A stretch of DNA of 64,000 nucleotides. It comes from Anadara kagoshimensis (lineage: Eukaryota; Mollusca; Bivalvia; Arcoida; Arcidae). Shown here piece after piece: positions 960-63,608 of this stretch. Within the stretch, counting starts at the first letter, position 1. Every line of letters begins with the position of its first letter. A program made the translations under genes and the position numbers. A model generated the notes under the pieces. The model had not been told where the DNA came from and searched no databases. It worked only from the letters and a program-made list of their open reading frames with translations. Location of the stretch: contig CM037860.1 in assembly GCA_021292105.1 (NCBI GenBank), forward strand, positions 11,240,698-11,304,697, written 5' to 3'.

Positions 960-3420
960 TTCATTATCAGATTAAATTTATACAATCTATATTTTTGAAA
1001 ATGTTCATAGCCGTCATCCAGAATAATCCTCAATATATTTGACGTTTATAGTTTTAATTTTCTTTCGTTATCAATTTGGATTTCGATTACACATGTGACA
1101 AGCTATACAGGCGATAATTTTTGCAAATGACATTGCCTTTTTAATGGTAAATTGCGTGTTCAACATAATTAACCAGGTTTTTAAGTTTTTACTTTTCAAT
1201 AGCGATGTTGAAATTAAGTGTTAATTGTTAATGAGAATTAAAAATTAAAAAAATAGAGAGAACATAAAACAACTTGATTTAATAGTGGACCTAGAGGATA
1301 AACAAATCGGTGAACTTCAAGCTCTATCATCTATAGATATAATCTATTTGACACGTCGGTGCGGCAGAATTCATTATTTAGAATAGCTCTCTTTAAAACC
1401 AATTAATCGACCTAATAATTGTCTTAAGAATAAAGAAATCAGTCAATGAACGTTATTAGTAATTTGACGGTTGTCAACAACACAATTGGTGGTCATAGAG
1501 TCTGTATCAATTTGCTCAAATTTCTGTAGTGCCTGACTGTATATTTCTAAAATAGAGTCGCTGCGTCATGATCATGCAGGGTATTGTTATATTCCACATA
1601 CATTTCACACGTCTAATGCATGTCATTCAGTTTGTTTTGCACGCCAATGGAAAGACTATAAACGTTATTTCGAGAGAGTTAAATAGTTAAATAATTTTCT
1701 CCGTGCACACAATGCTGATCTTTTCTTAAATCAAATAACAAAATAAATTGACAATAACTAAGATTAAAAACAAGTTTACATTTATCAGTTATGCAAGACA
1801 AACGATACAGTATATATCATCAGACACCCTGTCAATAATGTGTATGGTTGGTCTGACTTAAATTAAATCAAGCTCTTGATAGTATATGTTTGTCATCTAA
1901 TTAAAATTGAAAGTTGGACTGGTTTGAAATGGCTAAATTTGGTTGATACGACACAATTAAATCCAATTTAAAGACAGTGAAAGCTCTGTGCTTTAATCTC
2001 AATTCGAAATCGCGTTAACCTGATAGATTTCCTATCAGAAATATAACTTTATACTGATAAAAAAATAAAGCTAAATGATTAATCATAAATCAGTTCGATA
2101 ATGATGCCTATTCTGCCTCGATGCAGACGTATTACCATAGCAACATAGCAACTTGCAATGCACAAAGAACAAACGAAATAATCTTGAAGCATTATTGTAT
2201 TATGTTCTGTATACATGTATTTTGCTTACTGTATGCACATGCATGCACGTGCATAGGTGGTTGCGATGTACGAGAGTAAGGTAAAAAGCTACAAATATAA
2301 AAGGAAAACTTATTTAGTGACTCGATGAGACGAACTGACTAAACAGACAAATTTAACATATTAAGAACAAATTATTTCCTATATGGTAACTAATAAATAT
2401 GCTAATTTGTGATACCTAAAATTATCGGACACTCTAGGTGCTCCAACCAAAATGTAGGGAACTACGGAAAGAAACCTAGTAAAATCTTTATATTTAAAAT
2501 ATATCTGCATATTATCACAATAAAGTACTTTTGCTATGATCTGTCTCTGATGTGTATCTTCAATATCACACTTACATTAACATCAATGCAGTATGGTTGA
2601 AAAATGGGATTTGAAAGTACCAACGTGAGTACTGCAAGGGTTGACACAGTTCCATTTTTATGATATTGGGACAAAATAAGAAATAACAGGAGTTATCCAA
2701 GTTACCGATAGTTTTTCGTGAGTTGAAATACTTAATCTATGCTTATACTGTGAGCTGTCAGGTTTCAAAAGAATATAAATATCAAACTTTCAATTCTGAA
2801 GACGAAGTCTGCAAAAACATGGTCACAACGCACATGAACAAAAGATTTCTGATTAAGGGAGGTAATTCACTAAATAATCAAAGCACTGAAGGTACCCTCA
2901 CAATGCCTACATATTATTTCACTATTCCATTATATATACACTAGTATATATACTAGTAATATCAACACATTTGCAAACGTTAACGAGAAAATGTCTCGAT
3001 ATAATATCGATTTCCAGTTTGATGATGTTTTATACAGAACGAACAAAAGTATTGATATCAACAGTACTTTAATGCAGGCAAAACAACTCTTTGAGGGCCC
3101 TGCTAGGTCTATGTTTTTAATATCGCAGTGTCAAGAATCCATTTGAAAGCATCATGCTTCGTAGTTCCGGTAGTGGGGACAATGTTTACCATAACGTATT
3201 TATTGTGAAACAAATATATCAAAGCAGAAAAAAACAGGTCTATTGCTGCATCGAAAAAACGTTGTCACAAAAATTGTCATCACGTTTGTAATACAGTAGC
3301 AAATGTAGCCTTTCATTGCCGTCATAATTGATGCATAAGTCAAATTACTGTGAATACAAGGAGCAAAAAAACGTCTTGCAGTACGAGTTGCTAGACTGAA
3401 ATAGATACTGAATTTTTCTG
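960..3420. other. Block present only in duplication copy A
   Basis: Sequence on both sides continues directly in copy B (about 54422-54430), while this stretch is absent there. It holds one reverse-transcriptase relic (about 3050-3350) and otherwise unrecognised AT-rich DNA. Exact edges and terminal repeats could not be fixed by eye. Confidence 0.5.
3050..3350 (-). pseudogene. RT-element fragment (C-terminal coding part)
   Basis: Diverged match to the region read at 40500-40790 and 58040-58320, recognisable by 'ctttttgagggcc', 'gtagtggggaca', 'gaaacaaatata', 'tattgctgca' and 'catcacgtttgt'. It belongs to the C-terminal extension of the reverse transcriptase. Both ends of the element are missing. 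Confidence 0.7.
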
Positions 3421-4607: not shown

Positions 4608-4652
4608 ATTACATATTATACCAGTTTTAATTTTACAGCACTAGATTCCGTA
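4608..4652 (-). repeat. Truncated hammerhead-repeat insertion
   Basis: On the minus strand this reads from next to the hammerhead cleavage site (tagtgctgtaaaatt) to the repeat's 3' end (ggtataatatgtaat). Copy B at 55675-55690 runs straight from 'gaata' to 'atgtgatt', giving an empty site. A TA on both sides (4606-4607 and 4651-4652) could be a target duplication. Only the part 3' of the cleavage site is present. Confidence 0.7.
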
Positions 4653-6709
4653 ATGTGATTAGAGACTTAAGACATGCATATGTGCATGTGTTTATTAGAT
4701 TTACCGCATTTGCTTATGATTATGGGATTCATAATCATGCGTTTTTTTATATTGAGTATATTCAGCATATTCCTCAGGTTGCGTTTAATTATGAAAAAAA
4801 AACCTTCAAGCGAGGTCTAAAAAATAAAATTTATCATAATATTTTTTTTCTAAAATAGTTTTTAAAAAATCAAAATTATGATTCTTTTTTTACGCACATC
4901 CCACGTTTGCTTGAATTTTGAACAGTCGTGGTTATATAACAAAAATGATAACGATAACGTTAGTTTTTATGACCTGTAGCTTTTCAGACGATCTAAATAT
5001 ATAAAAGTGTATAAGACGAAATACAGATACAATTCTTATACGACGTCGTTTTTCACAAACAGAGATGAATCATGCTATTATGTTAGGGTAATTGCGTAAG
5101 ATACCATATCTCAACCATTACAACAGGAAGTGTCGGCAAAAAAAGACATATTATTTAAGAAGCTTTTTCAATTAAAGTCTTTATTTAGTATGATTATAGA
5201 TTTCATCCACAAAAACGTCTCCTCTTTAGGATTCATACGTGTATGTTTTTAAAGTGAGGCATCAAGATTATCCAGGATCTGTGCCATCCTAAAATTCTCG
5301 CGATGTGTTTTAAACATTTTAAAACACATATTTAAACATACAGGATCAGATATACTTGTTGGTTTTCTGCTTAACATCAGTATGTTTTAATTTTCTTTTT
5401 AGCAGCATTAAGCTGAAATAATGCTGGTGGGACTAAACACTACTAATTTGCCAACTGGGTATGTGAGCAGTGACAGAACTGGTCAGTTATCTTAGTAATA
5501 GGAGAGAAATATTATTATAAAATACGTTTCACGAGCAGTATAAATTTTTTCTGATGGAATTTTGTAAGTTTCAGAAAAAAACTTAAAATAATTTTATGAA
5601 GTCTTGTTTAATAGTATGTATATTGAGCGTATCATGTTTATCTGTTAAGAAACCAAACACACACCTGCTAGCAAAACCTTTATGTAGGCTGATGTTATCT
5701 GATTAAAAAGATTTTATAGCGATTTTTCTTTCAATTTTTGTTTTTTAACTCTAAGTGTATCTTCATTTCGTTTATAATACACAGAATATCAAATCTAAAA
5801 CATGTTTACAGGAAACCATAAAGATATGATGCAATTTCAGTCTAATTATTACAAGATTGATATGGAGTTGTTTTGATTTGAAACAAATTTCTGTCTGAAG
5901 AAAAATATTTATTTAATGTATGTTTTAAAATATCCACATTTGAAATCATGTAAAGTTCCGTAAATTTTATTTTTTCTCTACTTAATATGATTAATGACAA
6001 GAAAACATCTCAAAAAGTAGAAAGTCTGTAAATCATATCAACTGGTTATAAAAGCAATATGAACGGCTTAAGACTCTTAAGTTCTATAAGTATTTACAGT
6101 GTGGCTGAAACTTATATGATGGAAATAGACAATACTACCTAAACTGAAGATGGTATATAAAAACCAAAGAGAGCACTAAAAGCGCATATAGATCAATTAA
6201 TCTCCTAAAACATAATCACATGGATTCCACTTTCGATGAAGATAAATGTACACTGGCGAATGGCAAATGTCTTTATTTTCGAATTTCAGATCATCATCGT
6301 GATCATCAACCATTGGTGTTTCAAAGTTTCAAAATGACCATATCTCGCACACTTTCGATTAAAGATTCTTTTAACCTGATATGTATTCAAACCATCAACT
6401 ACTTCAATTGTAGGACTTGTCGACGAAAATTTGAAAGAAATAGGTATACACGAAATCGTTATTAATATGGATTGCCTCGAATGTGACATATACATCAATT
6501 TAACCTCAACATTAGATTTATCTCTTTATTGTCTAACATATCTACAAATCCTAATAATCGGTTTTATCCAGACAATGTGGACATCAGGTACTGATGATGA
6601 TAAATGGAAAGAATGACGCATACAATCCCCTATTTGAAGTCATAAATACATCATGTAACGTATTTTTTAAGCATGTATATTAACATCAAAGAGTTTATAA
6701 TCAAGTATG

Positions 6710-6931
6710 CAAGTTAAAATTTGAAATTTCTCAAAAACTAAGATATACTCCCTCATGCAAAGTATTTCCTTAGCTTAATTTTGTAAAATATATTTTGGTC
6801 CTTTGGGTAGCTTTTCAACATCTTCAAAAAAATTTTGGTTTCATAATTTTGGTCCAAGCACTACTGATGAGGAATTGTATTCCGAAACGGCCGTCTAGTG
6901 CTGTAAAATTAAAACTGGTATATTATGTAAT
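6710..6931 (+). repeat. Hammerhead-bearing interspersed repeat
   Basis: About 220 bp, inverted relative to and closely matching 13651-13870. Shared blocks include 'gttaaaatttgaaatttctc', 'ttggtcctttgggtagct' and 'ggtttcataattttggtcc', followed by the ribozyme and then 'ctgtaaaattaaaact'. No open reading frame. It ends near 'tattatgtaat'. A Penelope-like 3'-UTR fragment on the same strand starts about 65 bp downstream. Confidence 0.85.
6857..6902 (+). ncRNA. Hammerhead ribozyme, type I, intact-looking
   Basis: All conserved core parts are present in order. Stem I is agcacta (6857-6863) pairing with tagtgct (6896-6902), 7 bp. CUGAUGA lies at 6864-6870. Stem II is GGAAU/AUUCC (6871-6875 and 6879-6883) with a UGU loop. 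GAAA lies at 6884-6887. Stem III is very short (A6887-U6894 and C6888-G6893) with a GGCC loop. The cleavage triplet is GUC at 6893-6895, with predicted cut after C6895. The stem III segment ACGGCCGU is a palindrome, as in hammerheads that act as dimers. Self-cleavage is predicted, not shown. Confidence 0.9.
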
Positions 6932-6994
6932 ATCAGGACTTTATTGCATTATTGAATAGTTACATATTGAACAAGAAGGAATAAATGTGTCGCT

Positions 6995-7108
6995 GATCAG
7001 AAGGTAAATACCCTTCCGGAGCACCCTATCCCCATGGTGAAATTCTACGTTTTTAACCTCATTTCCCAGCTTTAAAATCTTTACTTTGCTTTTGAATTTC
7101 AGTCTGGA
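6995..7108 (+). repeat. RT-element 3'-UTR fragment
   Basis: Carries the shared 3' end of the reverse-transcriptase element in plus orientation: 'acccttccggagcaccc', then 'ggtgaaattctacgttttt', then 'tctttactttgcttttgaat'. It runs directly into an oppositely oriented copy at about 7106, so two 3' ends abut. Confidence 0.75.
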
Positions 7109-7745
7109 TCCATGTCCAAATCACAATCCAGAAACATTTTTTTTAAAACTGACAAGTTGGGTTATCCCAGTGACGTTAGGTCGGATTCTCCGGAAGTTTA
7201 AGCTAGTTACACCCGCCAATGTGTAATCAAAATTGAACAAAAGAAACGTGAAACTATGGGACGTTAAATATATCCAGGGCAATCCTGGACACAGACACAT
7301 CATACTTATCAACAGTACTATGATAATGGTCATAAACTTGTAATGTCCCAGGGTCAAGTATTATTTGTAAGCAGCTTACTTCGTTGTATACATTTCCCGT
7401 AGTGGGGAAAAAGCTCTACCATTGTACATAAATTGGGAAAACAACATAAGCAAGAGATGGAGATATATAGCTGCATAAAAAAGGAAAGTTGTGTATAGAA
7501 AAATTGAGGCTATCACGTTTGTCATACAGTTCCGATGTTACAGTTCATGGGCGTCATATTTGAGGTATGAGTCTATTAAAAAGTAGAACTTGAGGAATCA
7601 GTCTTATCGTTTCAAACGCATTAGGATAGATGGCATTCCAATTTGCTATGTAGTAAGGATTAAGAGACAGAACATCATCTATATATCTGTACATTGAGTT
7701 GAAAGATTTTGCGAGAGTCCCATGGTGTAGAACACTCATCATTTA
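7106..7745 (-). pseudogene. RT-element relic with intact YIDD box
   Basis: A 5'-truncated copy of the retroelement at 40239-42420, same strand. On the minus strand residues equivalent to 'RYIDDVLSLN' are readable near 7655-7700; this is reverse-transcriptase motif C with both aspartates, whereas the longest copy has DE. Sequence then continues through the degenerate C-terminal extension to the 3' UTR. Internal deletions and stops make it non-coding. Truncation lies just upstream of motif C. Confidence 0.8.
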
Positions 7746-13650: not shown

Positions 13651-14021
13651 AATTACATATTTTATCAGTTTTAATTTTACAACTAGACGGTCGTTTCGGA
13701 AACAATTCCTCATTAGTAGTGCTTGGACCAAAATTATGAAACCAAAATTATTTTTGAAGATGTTAAAAAGCTACCCAAAGGACCAAAATATATTTTACCA
13801 AATTAAGCTAAGGAAATACGTTGCATAAGGCAGCATACCTTAGTTTTTGAGAAATTTCAAATTTTAACTTACAGGAATTTAGACAATTATAGTATATTTC
13901 TGACAATTATACGAAATTATTGCCTACTGTGTGTGATATCCTGGGGGCACCAGCCACCAGCAGAGATATATCATTTAAATTACATATTATACAAGTTTTA
14001 ATTTTACAGCAATAGACGGTC
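13651..14021 (-). repeat. Two-site hammerhead unit (retrozyme-like)
   Basis: Read on the minus strand: a 5' partial hammerhead cut off in stem III (gaccgtc then tattgctgtaaaatt; GUC at 14015-14017), about 330 bp of spacer, then a second hammerhead with its GUC at 13686-13688, then the common 3' flank ending near 13651. The predicted cleavage sites are 329 nt apart, which would release a 329-nt monomer. The second ribozyme carries CUAAUGAG instead of CUGAUGAG and a weakened stem I, so it is probably dead. No ORF. This layout matches non-autonomous retrozymes or a tandem ribozyme copy. Confidence 0.7.
13685..13723 (-). ncRNA. Degenerate hammerhead ribozyme
   Basis: Stem I 5' arm gcacta is the complement of 13717-13722. 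The core CTAATGAG (complement of 13709-13716) has one G-to-A change. GGAA/TTCC-type stem II, GAAAC and ACGACCGTC follow. The change in CUGAUGA is expected to abolish cleavage. Confidence 0.8.
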
Positions 14022-27075: not shown

Positions 27076-27079
27076 TATA

Positions 27080-28417
27080 CGAGGGTCGTTCAAAAAGTCT
27101 TGTCCCTTCCTGTAAACCGTAAATAAAACACCGTAATTTATTATATTGTCACTTGTCACGGGTGACTGAGTTCATTCCGAAACACGTGGAACATTTTTAG
27201 ATTATATATGCAAAAGAATTAGTTTTTTCTTGCCATATTTTCATCATAACACTCGTTACACTGCTTGGAAAATGACGGACATGACAGGTAAAAACATTAT
27301 TGAAATGAGAAGCTTCATGAAAGCCTGTGCAAAACTCGTTAAATCGCCCAAACAAACATTCATTGAAATGCAAGATGTTTTTGGTGAGCGAAAGCTGTCA
27401 TATAGGTCCATCTCACGCTAGATACGTAAATTTAAAAATGGTGTTAACGACATTTCTGATAAGGCCCGTTCTGGAGGACCAAAAACAGCATGCACCAAAG
27501 AAAACATTACAGAAATTAAAAAACTGGTCAATAGGGATGGAAGGTTGACTGTTAAACAGATAGCTGAAGTCGTTGATTTCAATGGGGGCCGTACATTTCA
27601 TTCTCAGAAAAAAACTAGTCATGAGAAAGATTTCTGCTAGATGGATCCCTCATTTGTTGTCAAAAGAGCAAAAGCTCACACGGGTCAAAATGGCTAAAAT
27701 CTGCTGAAAATATATGGTAATTGTAACAGCAGGCGTCTGGCTGATATAGTTACAGGTGACGAAACATGGGTATATTACTTTTAGCCACATAGAAAGATAA
27801 ATAATAAAATATGGCTAACCAGAAAAAGGAAAACGACCTGAAATTGCAAGGCGCACTCAACGTACAAAGAAAGTTCTTTATGCTATATTTTTCAATAATA
27901 ACGACATAGTTGCCCAAATTCCCATCCTTAAAGGCCAGGGTATCACGGAAATCATTTATAAAAATAAAAGTCTTAAGAAAATGAAAAAAATAAATATGAA
28001 AAGAAAAGACCAAAGTCAGGAATTCGTGGTATTCGGTTACTCCATGACAATGCTCCTGCTCACAAATTTAAGTTGATGACTGAATTTTTGTACAAGGAAC
28101 GTGTTGTTGTTTTACCTCATCCACCTTATTCACCTGATCTTTCACCGTGTGACTTTTATCTCTTTCCTTAACTTAAAAACACCTTTCTGGTCGTCGATAC
28201 AGATCTCATTCATCGCTAGGTTCAGCAATTCATCAGTTTCTCAATGGTATATCCAAAAAAGAATATGCAAATGTATTTAGAAAATGGATCCAGCGTCTTA
28301 AAAAGTGTGTAGTCGTTAAAGGTGATTATTTTGAAGGAATGAAAATAAAATATCATAAATAAAACGTCTTAATTTGTGTTTTTATTATGAAGGACAAGAC
28401 TTTTTGAACGGCCCTCG
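27080..28417 (+). mobile_element. Mariner transposon, full length, inactive
   Basis: 1338 bp flanked by TA on both sides (27078-27079 and 28418-28419). About 28-bp terminal inverted repeats start CGAGGGTCGTTCAAAAAGTC on the left, and CGAGGGCCGTTCAAAAAGTC on the right when complemented. They differ at one of the first 20 positions. The interior holds a broken transposase. Length, TA target and ends fit the mariner branch of Tc1/mariner. Confidence 0.97.
27272..28362 (+). pseudogene. Mariner transposase, DD34D, broken
   Basis: The transposase would bind the inverted repeats and cut and paste the element at TA sites in the nucleus. Read across frames, the N-terminal half shows the helix-turn-helix region ('FGERKLSYRSISR', 'KARSGGPKTA', 'DGRLTVKQIAE') and a WVPHL-like 'RWIPHLLSKEQK'. 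The catalytic half shows 'VTGDETWVYYF' (first Asp), 'HDNAPAHK' (second Asp) and 'YSPDLSPCDFYLFP' (third Asp); 34 residues separate the second and third Asp, as in mariner. The frame is broken by a TAG at 27419-27421, frameshifts (for example near 27585) and several stops (near 27700, 27780 and 28168). I chose the start at the ATG of 'MTDMTGKN'; an upstream ATG at 27230 is also in frame. The terminal inverted repeats flanking it are intact. It cannot make a working protein. Confidence 0.95.
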
Positions 28418-28419
28418 TA

Positions 28420-31400
28420 TCTTTTTTTTTATCTTGATATAAGATTATTATATTTTCTATACTTTTATTTAATCATGAGATATTTCCGTTATGAATCATG
28501 TGCAAGTTTTAATTTTATTATTATTGATAAGCAACATTGATTAAAGAATCGTTTTAGCAGAAAGTATAAAAACCATAAAAGAACATGATTGACATGAAAA
28601 GCTTTTTACAATTAACAAGAGGTTTTGTAAATCCGCGTAAATGGCAACATTCCACAATTCAATATATAATAAAAAAGTATAAATAGGTCCAGACACATAT
28701 TAGAATAATAAATTATAAATTATATAACATTTCATATGTTATCTGTATTAGATTGCATGTTTAAGGGAAATGCTAATTTACTATAAAACCGTTCTATCTT
28801 TTAACGCATTCATCATATCACATTTTCTTAAGTATTTCGCTCAGAAGATACAAAAAATGTAATATAAGACATTCATTTTCATTACGGGATAAATGACAAT
28901 ACGCGTGACGTTTTGTATTCCTTGATTTATTATTGTATCTTAAATAAAATGCAAAGAGATACATCATTGTACCACGTAAGTGATACCAAAACGAGTCGTA
29001 CAAGCTTATTCTGTGTCAACGGTAATGCAAATACATAGCCCGTATGAAATGGGGTATCAGCAGAAACGTTTGTGAAACATTTTGTTAAAAAATGTGTTAA
29101 GTTCAGGAAAATATGTTAACACGTGACAAAACGTTTTATCCTTCACATTTCGATGTTAACTATTTAAAACATAACGCATAGTGATAAGTTTTCTCGAAAA
29201 CAATCAATGATATCCCTATCGGAGTGATCATTTACAAAAAGCATCATGTATAAACTGTGATAAGATATAGAATCGAATATTCTAAAATTAAATAAAGACA
29301 TGTAATCTCAACCGCAATGTAAGAATTATTATGTTACATCGGTGAAATAATGCATAGATTCAAGCTATAAAACAGCATTAAAATAAAATTGATAATCTCT
29401 ATGTGGAATCAGTAGATCATCAGTGGCATTGATGACTTACATGCAGGGTAGATTTACTGTTAAATTACTGGTGGTGCCAAAACATACATCGTGTTTTGAT
29501 CTTTGGTATATTTATATTAGTTTCAAAGCATGATAAATAACAAATAGAATCATCATTTAATAATTTTTGATTATCTGCAATATTTGATTAAAGCCTGTAC
29601 TCTTCTTAAAAAACACCAAAAAATTTAAATTAAACATTTATTAGTCCCAAGATGAGAAATTTTCCCTATTCAAATTAATTTATGAGATAAAACCGCTGCA
29701 ATTTTAGCTATGCGAAAACTCTCTCTCCCTCTTTATCTTTGTGAGTGTTATTTCTATCATATTCATTATTACTCAAAAAGTTTTTTAATCTTGACATCTT
29801 ATATCAAGTATATCTTGATGGAGTGCTCTTTGCCTCATTACCTAGTTGTTTTACATAAACATTCAGTAAACAAAACAAGATTGTAATAAGGAGGACAATA
29901 CCCGAGATTAAACAAATATGATTGATAGCTTGAACAAAAAGGTTTTATGTTAAATGTCCAAATGCTTATTGATTTGTGGAAAAAATAGCTATATGCTTCT
30001 CAGAATATAGCAATTTAAAATATAATGGTTTTTTTTTCTTACATCGATGAAGTGTATAGAAAATAAATGTCGTTCTTATAGTTACAATATAACATTATTA
30101 AGGCCATTTCTGAAAATTAACATATACATGTTGTAAGTTTAACACAAAGAAAACCAATTAGTGCAGTTTTCGTACACTACCTATCTAAATCTAATCCTTT
30201 CCGCGGCCGAATTTTCCGTAAGGTTACTGTTAAACTTCCGATAGGTAGGTTTGTAATATAGCAATTTGTTGATTCATTGAAATATTTTTTACGTTTTATA
30301 ATACAACATAATATGAAACATAGTTTAAGAAGAAATCATCATGCTTAGTATATAATTTCCTGATCACGCTTCAAATTAGTTGAATCAATTTTGTAAAATC
30401 AGTATTCCTTCAATGCCTTGCATTTAAGATTATTTATAAGTTACTTACCGGAATTCCATACGAACTTTACTAATGTTATTTTTAAAGTACTAGAATTGTA
30501 CCACCTGAAATGTGTTGTAATTATGTCTAGTTTTTAAAACTTGTCGGAAATTGGCAGTCTTCTTAATATCTTTTAATCGTTATTTTGTATTTTGAAAGTC
30601 TTTTCTTAACATGTTCTATTACATTTTCTATAATGTGAATAGCACTATAATAACTTATTTCATTTTAAGGTCATCCGTCTACAGCAAGCGTGCATGTCTT
30701 AACGCATGCGGTTTGCCTGTTCTTTAACTTAAACTTACCTGAGATATATTGTAACCTTGTCCGATTTACAGGAATAATGCAAATTCTAAGTCAATTTGTT
30801 AAAATTCCGTTTGAAACAGGTTGGGATACAAGATTTGGAGATTATTATGCCAGTGATTACAATTTGAAGCAATACATATACACTTATATAAAAAAATACA
30901 TATTAATTATTAAAACAATAATGCATGCTAAACTTGGAAGGCTTAGCGCGTTCTGTTCGCTTATATTACTTGCATTCAGTTATAATCAATATTTCATATT
31001 GACCACCTATATGAACTTTTCTAAATTAACAAGGGATTGGTAGCTATTTAATTTACATTATAAGCTCCTATTCTTGAACAGCAATTTAGAACGAATGTTT
31101 AGACTTTCGCATACTAAGTGGCGATTAGTGTAACGCAAAGCGATTCAAAACTGAAAGCCTTGTATTAATATCTTAATACAGCAATATAAAATATTGATCA
31201 AAACCACAGGCGAAGGATACATTGACGTTTGACGGTGTACGGGGGTACAAACTACAAAAAACTTTTTTAACACTTTTGTTACGCTTTGTAGTAATGTTTG
31301 TTTTGTCATTTTTACTTCGAGTTCGTATTCCGCGTAATCCCTATAAACGCTTTTGACTGAATTTGTTATTATAGCTAAACAACATCAGATCATCGATATA

Positions 31401-40195: not shown

Positions 40196-40355
40196 ATTTA
40201 ATTTTATTATTAAAATTTCAGTTGTATAATAAACTGCAATAATCAAAAACAAACATACTAATACATATCCGAATCCCAATTCAGAAGCAAAGTAAAAACT
40301 TTGGAACTGAAAAGTTAGGTTATACACGTGAACTTCAACCGGGGAAGTGAGGCCG

Positions 40356-40378
40356 GGTGCTCCGGAAGGGTAAGCACC
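40356..40378 (-). promoter_or_regulatory. 3'-UTR hairpin of the RT element
   Basis: GGTGCT and AGCACC form a perfect 6-bp stem around an 11-nt loop. It is kept exactly at 32227-32249 and nearly at 26130-26152. A role as recognition site for the element's own reverse transcriptase is inferred from position only. Confidence 0.5.
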
Positions 40379-40440
40379 TTCTGTTTAGCTAGCTACAACC
40401 GCCACGTGTGTAATCAAAATTGTATGAAAGGAACATGGAA

Positions 40441-42371
40441 CTATGAGACGTCAAAAATATTTAGGGCAATCCTGGACACAGAGACGTCAAACGTATCAAC
40501 AATACTGTGATAACGGCCATAAAACTTTTTGAGGGCCTTGATAAGCCTAGGCTTGCAATATCCCGGAATCAACAATTTATTTGCAAGCAGCCTACTTCGT
40601 TGTACAAAGTCCCCGTTGTGGGAACAAGCTCTACCATAGCGTAATAATTGGGAAACAAATACACTATAAGCAGGATAAGCAGGTATATTGCTGCATAAAA
40701 AGGAAAGTTGACAATAGAAAAATTGAAGTCATCACGTTTGTCATAATGTTTCACATTTAGCCTTTTTATTTCAAGCTCACTAGGATAGACGACATTTACA
40801 TAGTCTCCAAATTTAGGATTGTTAAGAGACAGAACCTCATCTATATATCTGCATGTTGAGTTGAATGATTTTTCGACAGTCTTCTCTCCAGATTTAACAA
40901 TGTTCTGTATAAATTCTGCTTCATAAGAATAAAAAACAAATCAGCAAGCAATGGTGCACAGTTTGTACCCATTGGTATACCGATTGTATGTTGAAAAACC
41001 ATATTACCAAACACAAAAAATATGTTATCTATCAAAAACTCCAACATTTTGTTGATGGTATCTTCAGTATATTTTTGTTTGGAATCCGTATAATGCTCGA
41101 CAAAATAACCAGAATCCCTGTTCAGCACCAGATATTTGAATCTTGACTTACCGTTTTTGTAAAAGAAAGACAATTGAATAATTTCTTTAAGACGTTCTTT
41201 TAATTTAGAATGAGGGATAGTGGTGTATAGTGTAGAAAAATGAAATGTTTTTATACTTTTTACATGAGTAAAGTATTAGAAGCAAAATGTTCAAGTAATT
41301 CTTTAGAATTTTTGAGAATCCACATTTGGTTGATTCCAGATGTAGAATATACTTTTTCTGAATAAGACTGAAGATCATCTTTGACGATTGTCAAAATCTG
41401 TGTTAGAGTTATCGATAATGATTAAGTAGTACATTTAGATGAGCCTGCTATATATCTTTCCTTGTATAGATTTTTATGGAGTTAAGGAATTCAATACAAG
41501 TAAGGAAGATCAAGATCTTCCTCTTTAAGATTGATACCGAAAGACTCGAGATCTCCCCTATGGTTGCAAAGAACTTCACCTGGGGTAAAATTAGTTCTAG
41601 TCTATGCAGGGTTATTTGATATACCATCTAAACCAAGCTCTTGAATAAGACATTCAAGGTAGAATTTCTTACAAACGAGAATAATGTTGTTGGAAGCCTT
41701 ATCAGCTGGGACAACAACATATTTGTTGTGTATGTCTGTTAGAATTGCCTTGATTTCTTGATCCTTGAGTACTGAAGACGGTTAAGTATCATAGACCCTA
41801 TAAGTCTGGCAATTCTAGTTTTAACGAGAGATCTTACAACCTTTATCCAGGCGGATAAGGTATCAAGCTCAACATCTTCTAATTTAGCGCAACATCTGGC
41901 GTACTCTTGAACAGAATCCATGACAAGTCTGAAATTCCGTCCCCAAGGAAAAAGTCGAGCTTCTCTATATTTAGGACCTTATGAAAGTAAAGATCTTAAT
42001 TTAATGTTCTCGATTATATTGAGATCACCAATTATCACATGTCCAGCTGGTCCATACATATAGGGAGAAGACGAGCAAGAGCAGGTAGGTGGAGTAAAGT
42101 TATGAAAGTTCAAACACTGTAATGTTTGTTTATAATTCAATATTTTGGATGCAATAGGTTTATTGTGGGAGTAGGAAACTAGAGGTTGCGAATTATTTTT
42201 GAAAGAAGCAGGGATTTTATATTGTACTTGTTTATTTTGAAAAATATTGGAAATGTGTATAGCATCTATGCCTTTGTTAGCACAGTGTAACTTAAGATAT
42301 TGGCGTTGACCATCGTTCTCAATATCGTTTTCCTGAGCAGGTTTAAATAATCTGTTAAAAGCAATATCCAT
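40441..42371 (-). pseudogene. Reverse transcriptase, Penelope-like, broken
   Basis: Would copy element RNA into DNA at the insertion site. Read across frames from 42371: an N-terminal region with a Cys cluster ('PTCSCSSSPYMYGPAGHV') and 'GDLNIIENIKLRSLL'; 'VVVPADKASNNII' near 41680 (the DKG-type motif of Penelope-like enzymes, here DKA); motif A as 'TLYTTIPHSKL' near 41220, with the expected aspartate read as His; motif B 'TIGIPMGTNCAPLLADLF' near 40960; motif C 'RYIDEVLSL' near 40840, where the family has YIDD; then a C-terminal extension ('KKFYGRYHSIVD') ending at the TAG at 40441-40443. I see no GIY-YIG nuclease. Several stops and frameshifts (near 41210, 41270, 41430, 41490 and 41620) kill it. 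I assign the Penelope-like class from motifs only; a distinct related RT clade is possible. Confidence 0.85.
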
Positions 42372-42424
42372 GATAATAGCAGTAAATTCCCCTCCTGCAT
42401 GCTTGTTTAGAAACCTTTTTATTC

Positions 42425-47432: not shown

Positions 47433-47855
47433 ATATAAATGTATTAAATGTATATGTATATTTATACTTTGCATTCACATATTTATAAAATATGAATAGC
47501 TCAAATCATAACCACCATTATCGTAAATTGTTAAAACAACACTAGTGCCTTGGAGAAACTGACAGACTTACCATATACTAGCATCCTTAACAAGATATAC
47601 CGAATTTCGATTAGTGAATGCTTGCAAAGATGAATTAGACTAAGACTGTTGTAAAGCTTTTGCAACTTGAGACCCTGCAAAGCTTGGTTGGCTGCTGCAT
47701 AGTTTTGCTTTCTTTGTTTTCTGAAATAAAAATGAATTACTTTTTAATAAATCATGGAAATAGTTGGTTTTATAAAAAAACATACATAAACGTATGGTTC
47801 TTGTCAAACAAATATGCTTTAGAACTTTAAAACTTTAATTTTTAAGTAGTGGAAA
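47433..47855. other. AT-rich DNA, nothing recognised
   Basis: No supported feature between the tRNA relic and the hammerhead relic. Confidence 0.5.
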
Positions 47856-47916
47856 CTACATATTATACCAGTTTTACAGCAATAGACAGCCGTTTCGTAA
47901 TATAATTCCTCATCAC
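47856..47916 (-). repeat. Hammerhead-repeat relic with degraded ribozyme
   Basis: Minus strand: GTGATGAG (C3 of the core changed to G), stem II GGAAT/ATTac, GAAAC, ggctGTC at 47885-47891, then 'tattgctgtaaaactggtat'. The stem I 5' arm is missing. Not expected to cleave. Confidence 0.8.
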
Positions 47917-47919
47917 AAA

Positions 47920-50900
47920 CAAAAAATAAAACTAAACTGGTACATCATGGATGTTTTAATGCAAATATGCAATCTTTACACATGTATGCAAATAACTGAC
48001 TACACGTATTTTCGTTTAAAGAAGGTACATGCCTTATCTTGATATTTTGCATTAAAACAAATACAAGGCAAAAGAAAAAGTCTGATATTATATTGTATTG
48101 AAATAAAGAATAATTTGAGAATAACTCAAACTTTAATAAGCAGATTCATACTTGATTTTTATTATTTGACAATAACTTATAGGTAAGCATTTTTTTTACA
48201 TATCTTACACATTATCAATATGCAAACTATATGTTTTGATTCAAACGGTTTATCATAATTTTTTAGCAGCATCTTTGGTAGGATTAAATTTTAAAATTGG
48301 ATTATAAAAATACAAGTTGATGGCATTTAGAGAGCTACATAACCTTCACATCATCGATTGCTATGTGAATGCTTAATGTCACATATTAATGCGTCTGAAA
48401 GTACTAAAAAGGGATAAATATTATGCTTAAATTGGTGCGTGTTGACATACGTTTATACAATACAATACAATATATAACACCTGTCATAAATACACAATTT
48501 ACTGCTACTTATGTCGTGTTAACTATTAATATATTTTCATAAGCTATACAACATATTATTCTAAATTATGTCACTTATGTCATTAAAAATGCAAAGTAAA
48601 AGTAACAAGTAAAATCATAGATTTTGTATAAGTTCATTTGTAGCGAAAAAACTGGGGTGCTAATTACGACATTTTAATAATTACACTGTTGCGTTTATAC
48701 GATAAAAGTTTTCATGACAGGTAAAAACACACTTAAGTATATACACAAGACAATTGATTGTGAAACTTGACCTGAAAGTCTGTAAAAATAGGTCAGTGTC
48801 TGACATTGCAATAAACCACTTTATTGTATTATTCGCCTGTTTGCTTATTAGGATTCGATTCCATAAGCCAGTCCATATCTCATATTTAGAATGATACATT
48901 TAAGTTACGTACTTGGATGACAAAATCAAGATGTCATGAATTAACAAAGAAGAGCAAACTAATAAACTGTCTGTGGCTAAAAGGATAAAAGCATCTGTAG
49001 ATTTAGCTAAGAAGAGTATAAATTTTTTCCTACTTGCACAATGTATTCCAAATAAAATCACCACGAAAAGGTATATACATATTACCTATGAATAAAAGAA
49101 CTATATAATCGTTTTCAACTTCTCAATGTCTGTTGAATAAGACTTTAAATTTATAGGAATTTTTTTCTTTACATGTAACAAAACATTGTTTGGATTTTTT
49201 TTATTGCATTAAAAATATATGAAAATGTACAAATACTACTTGTGATAATTTTTTTTTATAAAACAATTTCCATTGATTTTTGTTCTTAATATAAAAACGT
49301 TTATTTAAAACAATTCAACATGGGAGTTATGACGTTAGTATACCAAATATCTTGACAGAAGTGTCACACGTCATGGGATTCCGATTTTAATACCAAAGTG
49401 TCACCATTTTCTAGGTTTAAAGTTTCTATTAAATTATTCTAGTTAAGATTAGGGAATGCAATAACGTAATTTTAATTGAAAACGCTTGCTTTTATAAACT
49501 GCCAAGTGATTGGTTAAAAAATATTCATATATTTAGTATGATGTAAAAAGAACAAGAAGCACAGATAAAGGTAAATGAAAAGGTGGTGGAAAACATTGTG
49601 ATGATGGTCATATAACATAGAATATAGAATTTCATGGATGCCACGATTTCGCCTTATTTTTTTTAAATAAAATTATACTATCACTAATTAAAATAGACAT
49701 CCTCAACTAATACCTCCGTGGCAACATTCCTCTTATGTTATTGTAACATTTCCCGTCATTTCGATAGTAAGATATATTGTTATGTAATTTGTCATTGTTC
49801 TTTCGAATTTCTGGATTTAGCATTTAAAATTTAAGAATGAGTGAGGGGAAACGCCTTACATGTTAGATTTGGAAGGGAAAAGACTTTTTAAGATTTTAAT
49901 ATGCATGTTAAGCCATATTTGCTTACACTGAGAAGTTAGGTTTTCCAAAAACCGTAAGTATTATTGTTTCAAATTGCCGTCCAATAAAGGTAATATACAG
50001 CCAGTCGCATATGTATTTAATTTTTATTGTTTTACTCCTGTTTTTGTTTTGAAATATTCTTATTATGATTGATATGCATTTTATTTTTTAACAATTAATA
50101 TTAAGCAGTTTTATTTCTAGCTTACATTTTAGGTTCTTGCTTTTTCGGAGTCAAAAAATGCTTGAAATGATTTTATTTAAGAAATTGTGCGAAAAAATAA
50201 TGATGCATTTTTTAAAAAATAATTTAAAGTTGTATGTTGTAAAACTATAAAATTTTTCCTTACAAATGTTTTTTACATTTCGGAAAAATATCTTAAAAGA
50301 CCGAAAAACGATCGAATCAAACTTTGGGTCTAGACAATAAAAATGGCAAGAAAATATAAAATAACGTAAGCGTCATTCAACAGTACAAATGTGACATAGA
50401 TAAAGCGTCTTCTACTACGTCCGTAACATACTTCTCTAATATATATATATGTGTACGATTAGGGGTCAAATATTAGACTGTTCCTCTGATAGATTTTTTT
50501 GTTGTCACTAAAAGTATTAGTCCCATTAATATAAGTCAGAGTGTGACCTTCCAACGGAACAACACCCGCCTGCTTAACAGCATTATTTTATCTTTTCTGT
50601 AAGTTAGGTTTTATATGGTTTTTTTTTAATTTTTAATATTGATCTCAGCCAAGAAAAAACTATTTATAGTGTGTCTTGATAAATTAAAACCAAATTCAAG
50701 CTACAATTTAGCCTAGGCCATATTTAGTTGAATTTTTCATCGGCAAATGTCTTTTTTCCCTTTTTTGAATTTCTCTTAAGATACTGTATAGTTGCTTTTA
50801 TTCACTGGGGATTTAATTTTGCTATATTTGCGGGTCTTCATAGCAAGAAATTAAATACAAAGTCAATATATTTCATGTAGCATTCATTAAACATGGACTG

Positions 50901-57602: not shown

Positions 57603-57710
57603 GATATAAGCCTCAAACTGTCCAGTATGTAAAATATTGGACTGGCCTCGGCGCTTCGCGCCTCGACAAGTCCAGTATTTTACATACTGGACAGTTTTTC
57701 GGCTTATATC
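57603..57710. mobile_element. Foldback MITE, 108 bp, GC hairpin loop
   Basis: Arms of about 44 bp: left 'gatataagcctcaaactgtc', right when complemented 'gatataagccgaaaaactgt'; both continue into 'ccagtatgtaaaata'. The central spacer contains a second small hairpin, ggcgcttcgcgcc. It shares the phrase gtccaatatttt/gtccagtatttt with the MITE 1 kb upstream, so the two may be related. Confidence 0.88.
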
Positions 57711-59053: not shown

Positions 59054-59320
59054 TAGTCCATCATATTCGTGCAAAAAATTGACAAAATTGTGGGTTTTTT
59101 GTTAAAAGCATGAAATTTGGCATGATTATAGTTCATAACCTGGAGATTATTTTCAGATATGGGGCCATCCAAAAAAATTCAATATGGCCGCCATTTTCAA
59201 TATGGCGGACAAAATGGCCGCCAAAATCACATACACTGATTTAAATTTTGTTATCACCTATTTTGTTCACATATATGCAGGATTTTTTTTTTAGTTTTGA
59301 TCTGCTTATTACTTTAACAT
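59054..59320 (+). repeat. Left terminal inverted repeat
   Basis: 267 bp. Shared landmarks with the complemented right end: 'gcatgaaatttggcatgatt', 'attattttcagatatggggc', 'caatatggccgccatttt', 'tcacctattttgttcaca' and 'gatctgcttattactttaac'. Confidence 0.95.
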
Positions 59321-59633: not shown

Positions 59634-60802
<1,169 letters not shown>

Positions 60803-61714: not shown

Positions 61715-63160
61715 GATATGATAATCAATACAACTAATCTGTATATTTTTTTTGTTACTATTCAATCGCTATTTTGTTTGTCATATTTGATATGACAGTC
61801 ATTTTTAATTGCAAATAAATTTATCATTTATCTACGAGTAATCACAGGTCACATAAAAATTATTTCAAGAAATATTGAAATGTTAATTCGTACAAAAAGT
61901 GTTTAAATCTACATTTTTCATTTATTCAGAGGACATTTTGTCCGACATATTTGGAATGACAGCCATTTTGAGTTTCAAATCATCAGCTGATATATGTAAA
62001 TATAATAAGTAGATCAAAAACAAAATAAATTCCTGTATATTTGTGAAGAAACTAGGTTATAAAAAACTTTCAATACAGTTAATTTGATTTTGATTTGGGC
62101 GGCCATTTTGTCCGCCATATTTGAAATGGCAGCCATATCGATTTTTTTAGTTGGCCCTATATCTGAAAATAATCTGTAGGTCATGAACTATTATTATGCT
62201 AACTAGACATAGTTCCTGTTTTCAACCAATCATCAAATAGCCATATACAAAAATATTACTGCAGATATGATAATAAATACAATGAATATGTAAATCTATT
62301 TGTTACTATTTATCCGCCATTTTGTTCAGCCATTTTGAATTGCAAACAACTTTACGATGTTTCTATGACACAGGTCATGTACAAAAAGATGTATCTATGG
62401 GTAATCAAGTCATATACAAAATGTTTTCATACAGTTCTGATTTTCAAAATCAGTACAAAAATGTTGAGATCTACATATTTTATTAATTGAGTGGCCATTA
62501 TGTCCGCCATATTGGAAATGATAGCCATTTAAAATTTCAATAAATTTTAATAATTTATTAAATAATCCTTATCTGGATTTTTTTCTTAAAGCAATACAAA
62601 GCAAAGTTTGTGTTTTCAAAAGATCGCCAAAAAGTCAGAAGCAGACCTATTTTTTAAATATCCCGCGGTTCAATACAATGAAGCTGTACAGCTATTTGTT
62701 ATAATTTGGCCGCCATTTTGTTCGTCATATTGGATTTGACGGCCATTTTGAATTGTAAAAATTTTTTAAATATATCTCTGAGTAATCACAGACCATATAC
62801 AAAATGTTTTCATGCAATACTTAATTGAAAATTGGTACAAAAATGCTTAAATCTACGTTTTTCATTCTTTGAGTCGCCATTTTGTCCGCCATATTAAAAA
62901 TGGCAGCCATTTTGAAATTCAAATCATCAGCAAATAAATGTTAAAGTAATAAGCAGATCAAAACTAAAAAGAAATTCCTGCATATTTGTGAACAAAATAG
63001 GTGATAACAAAATTTAAATCAGTGTATGTGATTTTGGCGGCCATTTTGTCCGCCATATTAAAAATGGCGGCCATATTGGATTTTTTTGGTTGGCCCCATA
63101 TCTGAAAATAATTTTCAGGTCATGAACTATAATCATGCCAAATTTCATGCTTTTTACCAA
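61715..63160 (+). repeat. Three tandem subterminal units of the transposon
   Basis: Units start near 61715, 62265 and 62667. Each carries 'cgccattttgt.cgccatatt' followed by 'atgg.agccatttt' blocks (61925, 62100, 62315, 62495, 62705, 62872 and 63035). Units 1 and 3 are nearly collinear from 'catttttcatt' to 'ggtcatgaacta'; unit 2 is shorter. The last unit runs into the right terminal inverted repeat. Confidence 0.88.
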
Positions 63161-63194
63161 AAACTCACAATTTTTTCACGATTCCGCTGGACTA
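62938..63194 (-). repeat. Right terminal inverted repeat
   Basis: Complement of 59054-59320 with scattered differences; ends TGGACTA, then TAT. Confidence 0.95.
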
Positions 63195-63608
63195 TATGAT
63201 GCAAATTCAGTTTCATATTCCAAGATTGATACAAGGATGTTTTGATTTAAAACAAATTTCTGACTGAAGACAATATTCTGCAAAAATTAACGCAAATTAA
63301 AATAATTATTTTTTTAGATACATAAATATAACTTTTTTAAAAAGCTACTTAATATGATGAGTAAAATTAGTCAGTAAATCATATCAACTTATTTTAAAAC
63401 ATTTACCAGAGAATTGTCTAAAGTTTTCAAATTGTGGCTAAAACATGTACTTGGAAAAAATAATACTACTAAAAAGAAAACTCAATATGCCATATGAATC
63501 CCACAGAAGACAAAAAAGACAACTAAAACTACCGATTGTGGGCAATCACAATGACGTCGCCGAGTTCTATGCCCATTTCATTTTAATATTCAGTTCACCC
63601 GTGGTTAG

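Follow-up and report, generated by a model that had tools for sequence, protein, structure and literature searches.

A type I hammerhead ribozyme of Anadara kagoshimensis that probably belongs to a non-LTR retrozyme with a shared 3' end

The animal non-LTR retrozymes described by Cervera and de la Pena combine a type I ribozyme with short tandem units that are low in GC and non-coding (PMC7229834, in part; also passages of PMC7761336 and PMC6155905). For Mytilus galloprovincialis, the sections of PMC7229834 drawn on here put the number of type I hammerheads at about 5,000, most often within repeats of about 350-390 bp, and describe high circRNA levels; the tertiary contact between loop 1 and loop 2 is mostly absent in the mussel families, and a cloned mussel repeat is reported to cleave at a rate of about 0.1 per minute. 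The element reported here resembles the Mytilus retrozyme in its type I hammerhead, in repeats that are low in GC, non-coding and a few hundred bp long, and in its thousands of copies, and it differs in a unit of about 339 bp, the two being likened by description. The retrozymes of newt and axolotl, as portrayed in the same sections, are also type I, with a very short stem III, a palindromic loop, plausible action as a dimer and a unit of 330-350 bp. Loop-loop contacts are described for them (one axolotl type conserves all of them, and in the other they are likely less stable), whereas none is recognisable here, again in a likeness by description. The same sections leave open which element copies animal retrozymes into DNA, the possibilities named being LINEs and Penelope-like elements, the second as a strong candidate. 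One of the latter, Poseidon of Anolis, resembles the present element in that its type I hammerhead lies upstream of the fixed internal point at which reverse transcription starts and its genomic copies stop at start sites (PMC11167929, in part). Unlike it, Poseidon encodes a reverse transcriptase and a GIY-YIG endonuclease, and its start lies farther from the cut: the cut is placed 26 bases into the ORF, the start 111-118 bases (same passages). We put at about 90% the probability that the ribozyme at 6857-6902 belongs to a metazoan non-LTR retrozyme, here a mobile, non-coding element whose unit measures about 339 nt and which is reverse-transcribed from a fixed internal site. Mussels and other animals already provide examples of such retrozymes, to which this one adds a new member.

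We analysed a 64,000-nt stretch of A. kagoshimensis DNA, referred to below as the window. It was confirmed to contain a complete type I hammerhead, which from its sequence is predicted to be a self-cleaving RNA (Table 1). The original prediction of an intact ribozyme here was right in its coordinates, in all core bases, and in a 7-bp stem I and a 5-bp stem II; the cut that it placed after 6895 agrees with the GUC found there, and the two-base-pair stem III that it called self-complementary lies in the palindrome ACGGCCGU. Folding suggests a possible extension of stem I, separated from it by an internal loop of GGUCCA (6851-6856) and GU (6903-6904). In the 25 distinct copies aligned, 84.6% of cells in this extension helix are paired. 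No canonical loop-loop tertiary contact is recognisable in the ribozyme; in the fold the internal loop and the UGU loop could meet, and no covariation was seen.

Table 1. Parts of the ribozyme and retrozyme insertions in the window, by window position.
Feature	Position	Strand	Basis
Type I hammerhead ribozyme	6857..6902	+	read from sequence, RF00163 alignment, shuffles
Stem I, 7 bp without mismatch	6857-6863 AGCACUA / 6896-6902 UAGUGCU	+	
Hammerhead core CUGAUGA	6864-6870	+	
Stem II, 5 bp, loop UGU	6871-6875 GGAAU / 6879-6883 AUUCC	+	
Hammerhead core GAAA	6884-6887	+	
Stem III palindrome ACGGCCGU, 8 nt	6887-6894	+	
Stem III pairs A-U and C-G, monomer form, GGCC tetraloop	6887-6888/6893-6894	+	
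GUC, predicted cut after C6895	6893-6895	+	
Possible stem I extension, 7 bp	6844-6850/6905-6911 (span 6844..6911)	+	fold, pair list
Whole retrozyme insertion with intact ribozyme, 5'-shortened, single	6708..6931	+	
Element tail to shared 3' end ...TATGTAAT	6903..6931	+	
Second retrozyme insertion, 368 nt, more than one unit	13652..14019	-	
Decayed hammerhead, CUAAUGA core, 3' strand of stem I shortened by deletion	13681..13723	-	
Solo tail, starting 2 nt ahead of the cut-site position, ending at the shared 3' end	4608..4645	-	
Copy with its start within the ribozyme core (GUGAUGA) and its end at the shared 3' end	47852..47915	-	

The check by the Rfam Hammerhead_1 model that had been proposed for this feature came out divided. 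On the 68 bases from 6845 to 6912, RF00163 aligned from its first to its last model position with 28.1 bits and an E value of 1e-5, under filters that are laxer on so short a stretch; this score is below the gathering cut-off of 34 bits. At gathering, no hammerhead was reported for the whole window, and none appeared with E<=10 in the 351 bases from 6700 to 7050. An RF00163 profile search of the species' own genome returned no matches and is uninformative (73 of 112,716 candidates were scored, and 14 control genomes likewise gave none). The unreached gathering threshold would suit a motif assembled by chance, a reading that we regard as vanishingly improbable. A relaxed descriptor (exact core with stem I of at least 5 bp) has the 6857-6902 site as its sole match in the window; it matched once in 400 dinucleotide shuffles, and never with stem I of at least 7 bp and stem II of at least 5 bp. 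Moreover, the core pattern CTGATGAG-N12-GAAACG-NN-CGTC has 6,190 exact matches (3,136 and 3,054 by strand) in the species' own genome assembly (1,115,223,567 bases, 36 contigs), where its reversed control has none, and this copy number already refutes chance. A simpler gapped core pattern is expected 0.04 times per window and was present in 4 of 100 shuffles. In a collection of prokaryote contigs (257 Gb by its own description), the core pattern was found in 15 stretches, with stem I never longer than 3 bp and stem II never longer than 1 bp; another search of prokaryote contigs for relatives of the ribozyme gave no match, nor did four patterns searched in viral contigs. Phage records produced just short matches in 10 (E up to 1), one of which was inspected.

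Folding bears on the suggestion that the ribozyme works as a dimer. The 46-mer alone prefers a misfold of -12.3 kcal/mol over the hammerhead of -7.8 kcal/mol, and two co-folded strands form a double hammerhead with an 8-bp stem III at -34.5 kcal/mol, versus 2 x -12.3 kcal/mol for the separate strands. These modelled energies agree with the proposal that the ribozyme may act as a dimer, and the need for a dimer is unproven by them. The relevant passages of PMC7229834 liken a 2-bp stem III with a tetraloop to the hammerheads of invertebrates, and according to those of PMC7761336 most type I motifs of invertebrates cleave efficiently in monomer form. Neither the 328-nt window unit (z -0.26) nor 6826-6931 (z -0.30) folds better than its shuffles; the 49-nt stretch 6855-6903 is more stable than shuffles (z -2.69), yet its fold is the misfold. 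Covariation over the whole structure in 25 distinct copies is not above that of shuffles, which is a weak test given how similar the copies are and that the core pattern fits 27 of the 28 rows. The 2-bp stem III with its tetraloop is present in all 25 distinct rows, but the pattern that 27 of the 28 rows fit fixes these very bases.

The genomic copies have the arrangement of a retrozyme. One hundred of the core-pattern matches were listed, all on contig C1, and the first 30 were fetched; with G-U pairs counted, stem I reaches at least 7 bp in 22 of the 30 fetched centre copies, a rough share since five of them form one array. In this C1 array, five ribozymes stand at spacings of 339, 339, 339 and 338 bp, and the five units are 98-100% identical to the one chosen as reference. 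Further ribozyme pairs on C1 are 325, 339, 357 and 378 bp apart, and head-to-tail groups at 325-378 bp account for 13 of the 100 matches listed. The array unit is 339 bp long with a GC content of 33.6%, and its longest stop-to-stop frame, read over three tandem units, is 83 aa; with no frame longer than this, the unit is too short for a reverse transcriptase. The insertions in the window have a GC content of 0.304. Presumably a colinear mussel repeat has a similar block after its ribozyme, which we take as a lead only. In a sample of twenty 10-kb stretches drawn blind to content, four hold copies of the unit (two stretches of the sample adjoin the window), and L020 of this sample holds a decayed tandem pair.

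Several features by which retrozymes are recognised are present: a type I hammerhead with an intact core, tandem repeats within 150-450 bp as dimers to multimers in many copies, and non-coding sequence with GC below 45%. Assignment to the non-LTR class (no LTR, PBS or PPT) is a provisional judgement from unit size and arrangement. The kinship with metazoan retrozymes that had been suggested is thus borne out by the type I hammerhead, the many genomic copies, the short tandem units and the pattern of insertion ends described below.

Two observations concern the ribozymes of other copies. The catalytic G12 lies within a CpG and reads A in L034:1204-1350 and in both ribozymes of L020:8791-9389, and so ribozymes may die by CpG decay. 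A second ribozyme type, distinguished by the stem II stretch GGAATTTTATCAC, occurs at C1 12444557, 13227824 and 13228811 (3 of the 100 matches listed).

The insertion that bears the ribozyme corresponds to positions 116-339 of the 339-nt array unit, with 94% identity. Comparison of the window with itself shows 92% identity between 6708-6931 and 13873-13652, and yields three further insertions of the repeat, all on the minus strand; the only intact ribozyme in the window is the one at 6857-6902. The shared 3' end lies 36 nt past the predicted cut in the 6708-6931 copy and 37 nt past it in the array unit, and the tail sequence of the retrozyme is AAAACTGGTATAATATGTAAT. With its single ribozyme, the 6708-6931 insertion could cut a read-through transcript once and could not itself release a unit-length RNA. 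From a start 5 nt ahead of the cut-site position, the second insertion spans one full unit plus a second ribozyme and stops at the shared 3' end; its two cut-site positions (14015 and 13686) are 329 nt apart. Next to the copy that starts inside the core, 47916-47980 (minus) has a counterpart at L017:6686-6760 (minus): the two have in common the upstream sequence ATTTGCATTAAAACATCCATGATGTACCAGTTTA before a ribozyme fragment that starts in the core. Since two such fragments share this upstream sequence, a chimeric repeat has seemingly been amplified.

The ends of these insertions hint at how the element is copied into the genome. We set the end of the array unit directly after the motif that closes solitary copies, which gives 339 nt with the cut site at position 302, and compared a five-unit array stretch by BLAST with the window, L017-L036 and L037-L066 on both strands, merging matches by position. 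Of the 39 insertion blocks obtained, 28 stop at the shared 3' end. Three same-flank duplicates (C1:2041708, C1:3015946 and L017:6620) were dropped to leave 36 distinct blocks, a set from which the weak copy L017:1637 is absent. Of the 36, 26 stop at the shared 3' end, which reads TATGTAAT or some variant of it; the tolerance was 12 of 339 positions, from 334 through the sixth base beyond the unit, and about 1 in 36 would be expected if ends were spread evenly. The other 10 distinct blocks stop away from the shared site, and two of these (C1:932431 and L036:4490) have a similar motif just past the BLAST edge. The 5' ends are scattered over the unit, with those inside the ribozyme under-sampled because 30 loci had been selected for an intact core. 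Seven of the 26 blocks with the shared end are longer than a unit, at 369, 394, 465, 482, 599, 802 and 1727 nt. In the C1 array the inner units run on past the shared site, and the last unit alone stops there. Taken together, the common 3' end, the varied 5' ends and the blocks longer than a unit point to reverse transcription that starts at a fixed site, with a template either circular or more than one unit long.

Tandem arrays of near-identical units are also what ordinary satellite DNA would produce, with arrays spread by recombination and the ribozyme a mere passenger. We consider this very improbable: among the 36 distinct blocks, 29 fall short of a full unit, the combination of a common 3' end with scattered 5' ends fits reverse transcription and not unequal exchange, and the ribozyme core has been kept in thousands of copies. 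In the passages of the literature covered here we found no statement of a shared 3' end in animal retrozymes, which may nevertheless be in print; sequence words searched in the text of papers gave no match.

No consistent target-site duplication was seen among 23 shared-end insertions, taken from one strand and without L017 and the overlapping L038-L041, L051 and L064. Omitting L047, a flanking word of at least 7 nt is common to both sides in 7 of 22 insertions, as against 14.8% of mismatched pairs, which is a weak signal. At L047, what looked like a 32-nt duplication turned out to be a 32-bp tandem repeat that had received the element as an insert. At this locus (about 1036-1262 and from 1569 on, reverse-complement) the register of the repeat continues across the insert, with no visible gain or loss save whole repeat units.

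We then asked of the genome counts whether the template was cut. There are 3,259 exact tails in the genome, of which 2,815 extend up to the cut (TAGT) and 2,481 include GTC; 1,730 extend further through CGGCCGUC (CGGCC added). These counts are of exact tails and include inner array units, for which crossing the cut is inevitable. Per base, 3.6% of the matches are lost ahead of the cut and hardly more, 4.1%, across it; beyond it the loss is 7%, in a region with two CpG and a variable pair. With cut RNA as the usual template, inserts would be expected to stop at the cut. Because 88% of the exact tails that reach the cut also cross it, most templates are likely to have been uncut multimers or re-closed circles, and a minority may have been cut. 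Cut RNA as the main template had been suggested by two of the four window insertions, which start 2 and 5 nt before the cut; the genome counts lend it no support. Behind 60 exact tails in the first 18.6 Mb of C1, the exact core is present 17 times, a figure that mixes 5' shortening with decay. In the passages of PMC11167929 on the Anolis Penelope-like element, cutting by the ribozyme is unneeded for insertion in vitro and uncut RNA is taken as the main substrate. By analogy, this agrees with the crossing of the cut seen here.

The data fit a Penelope-like mobilisation, with a Penelope-like enzyme as a possible mobilising partner. A different proposal is that the feature is itself a pseudo-LTR fragment of an autonomous Penelope-like element encoding its own reverse transcriptase, with the arrays as tandem pseudo-LTRs; we judge this improbable. 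Penelope-like elements do bear type I hammerheads and a tail signature with an internal start of reverse transcription (PMC11167929, in part), and the missing canonical loop-loop contact recalls the Penelope minimal ribozymes (PMC7761336, in part). However, the Penelope type is described in the latter passages as lacking helix III or tertiary contacts, and a closed stem III is predicted here. Further, the grouped ribozymes among the copies listed or fetched are 325-378 bp apart and leave no room for a polymerase, and no RT/GIY-YIG ORF bounded by ribozyme-bearing pseudo-LTRs was found among these copies. Broken reading frames with a GIPMGTNCAPLLADLF motif occur in the window at 40441-42422 (minus), and we take them to be reverse-transcriptase-like. 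Repeat pieces related to them lie at 3115, 7108-7531, 12560, 26074, 40261-40750 and 57920. The frames could be counted in favour of an autonomous element, but alignment of one of them with telomerase is insignificant (E 2), and a Pfam search of four such frames and one transposase-like frame gave nothing at an E value of 0.001, with a chance DUF2304 match (0.45) at E<=10. The piece at 7108-7531 adjoins the 6708-6931 insertion, but on the opposite strand, and the other ribozyme copies of the window show no constant arrangement with the RT-like repeat. For the identity of the feature, then, the Penelope-like element mentioned beside retrozymes in the original prediction finds no support, given a 339-bp unit, no frame above 83 aa and a stem III closed by 2 bp; a retrozyme remains our reading.

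Other repeats were seen in the window. Inverted ends ATACGAGGGTCGTTCAAAAAGTCTTGTCC at 27077-28420 surround a frame with a weak match to HTH_48 (Mos1 transposase; E 0.0067), perhaps a decayed mariner-like element. A 258-nt inverted repeat (59063-59320 and 62938-63195, 92% complementary) has related pieces between its arms and encloses a GAT microsatellite at 59731-60661. A hairpin at 57615-57697, with 40-nt arms that are 88% complementary and 3 nt between them, is possibly a small inverted-repeat transposon.

For the non-LTR retrozyme, the cycle that we propose would begin with transcription of a stretch holding at least two units. By what the literature describes, a unit would be closed into a circle by a host RNA ligase. 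A reverse transcriptase, presumably from another element, would then begin at the fixed internal site, which lies 36-37 nt beyond the cut; copying would run along an uncut multimer or round the circle, sometimes more than once, to stop at varied places. A more general proposal is tentative, and we give it somewhat less than even odds: metazoan retrozymes may be copied in a Penelope-like manner, from a fixed internal start 36-37 nt past the cut on a re-closed circle or uncut multimer, in more than one round, so as to give inserts of non-integer length with a restored ribozyme. Most worth following are the common 3' end and the tendency of copies to cross the cut. A 3' end shared at a set distance from the cut in thousands of copies makes the copying element testable by genomics alone, and two routes offer themselves: a search for an autonomous element with the same tail, and a reading of the template state from 5' ends and cut crossing. 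If the proposal is true, the share of copies that cross the cut would record how large a part of the template was closed or uncut during copying.
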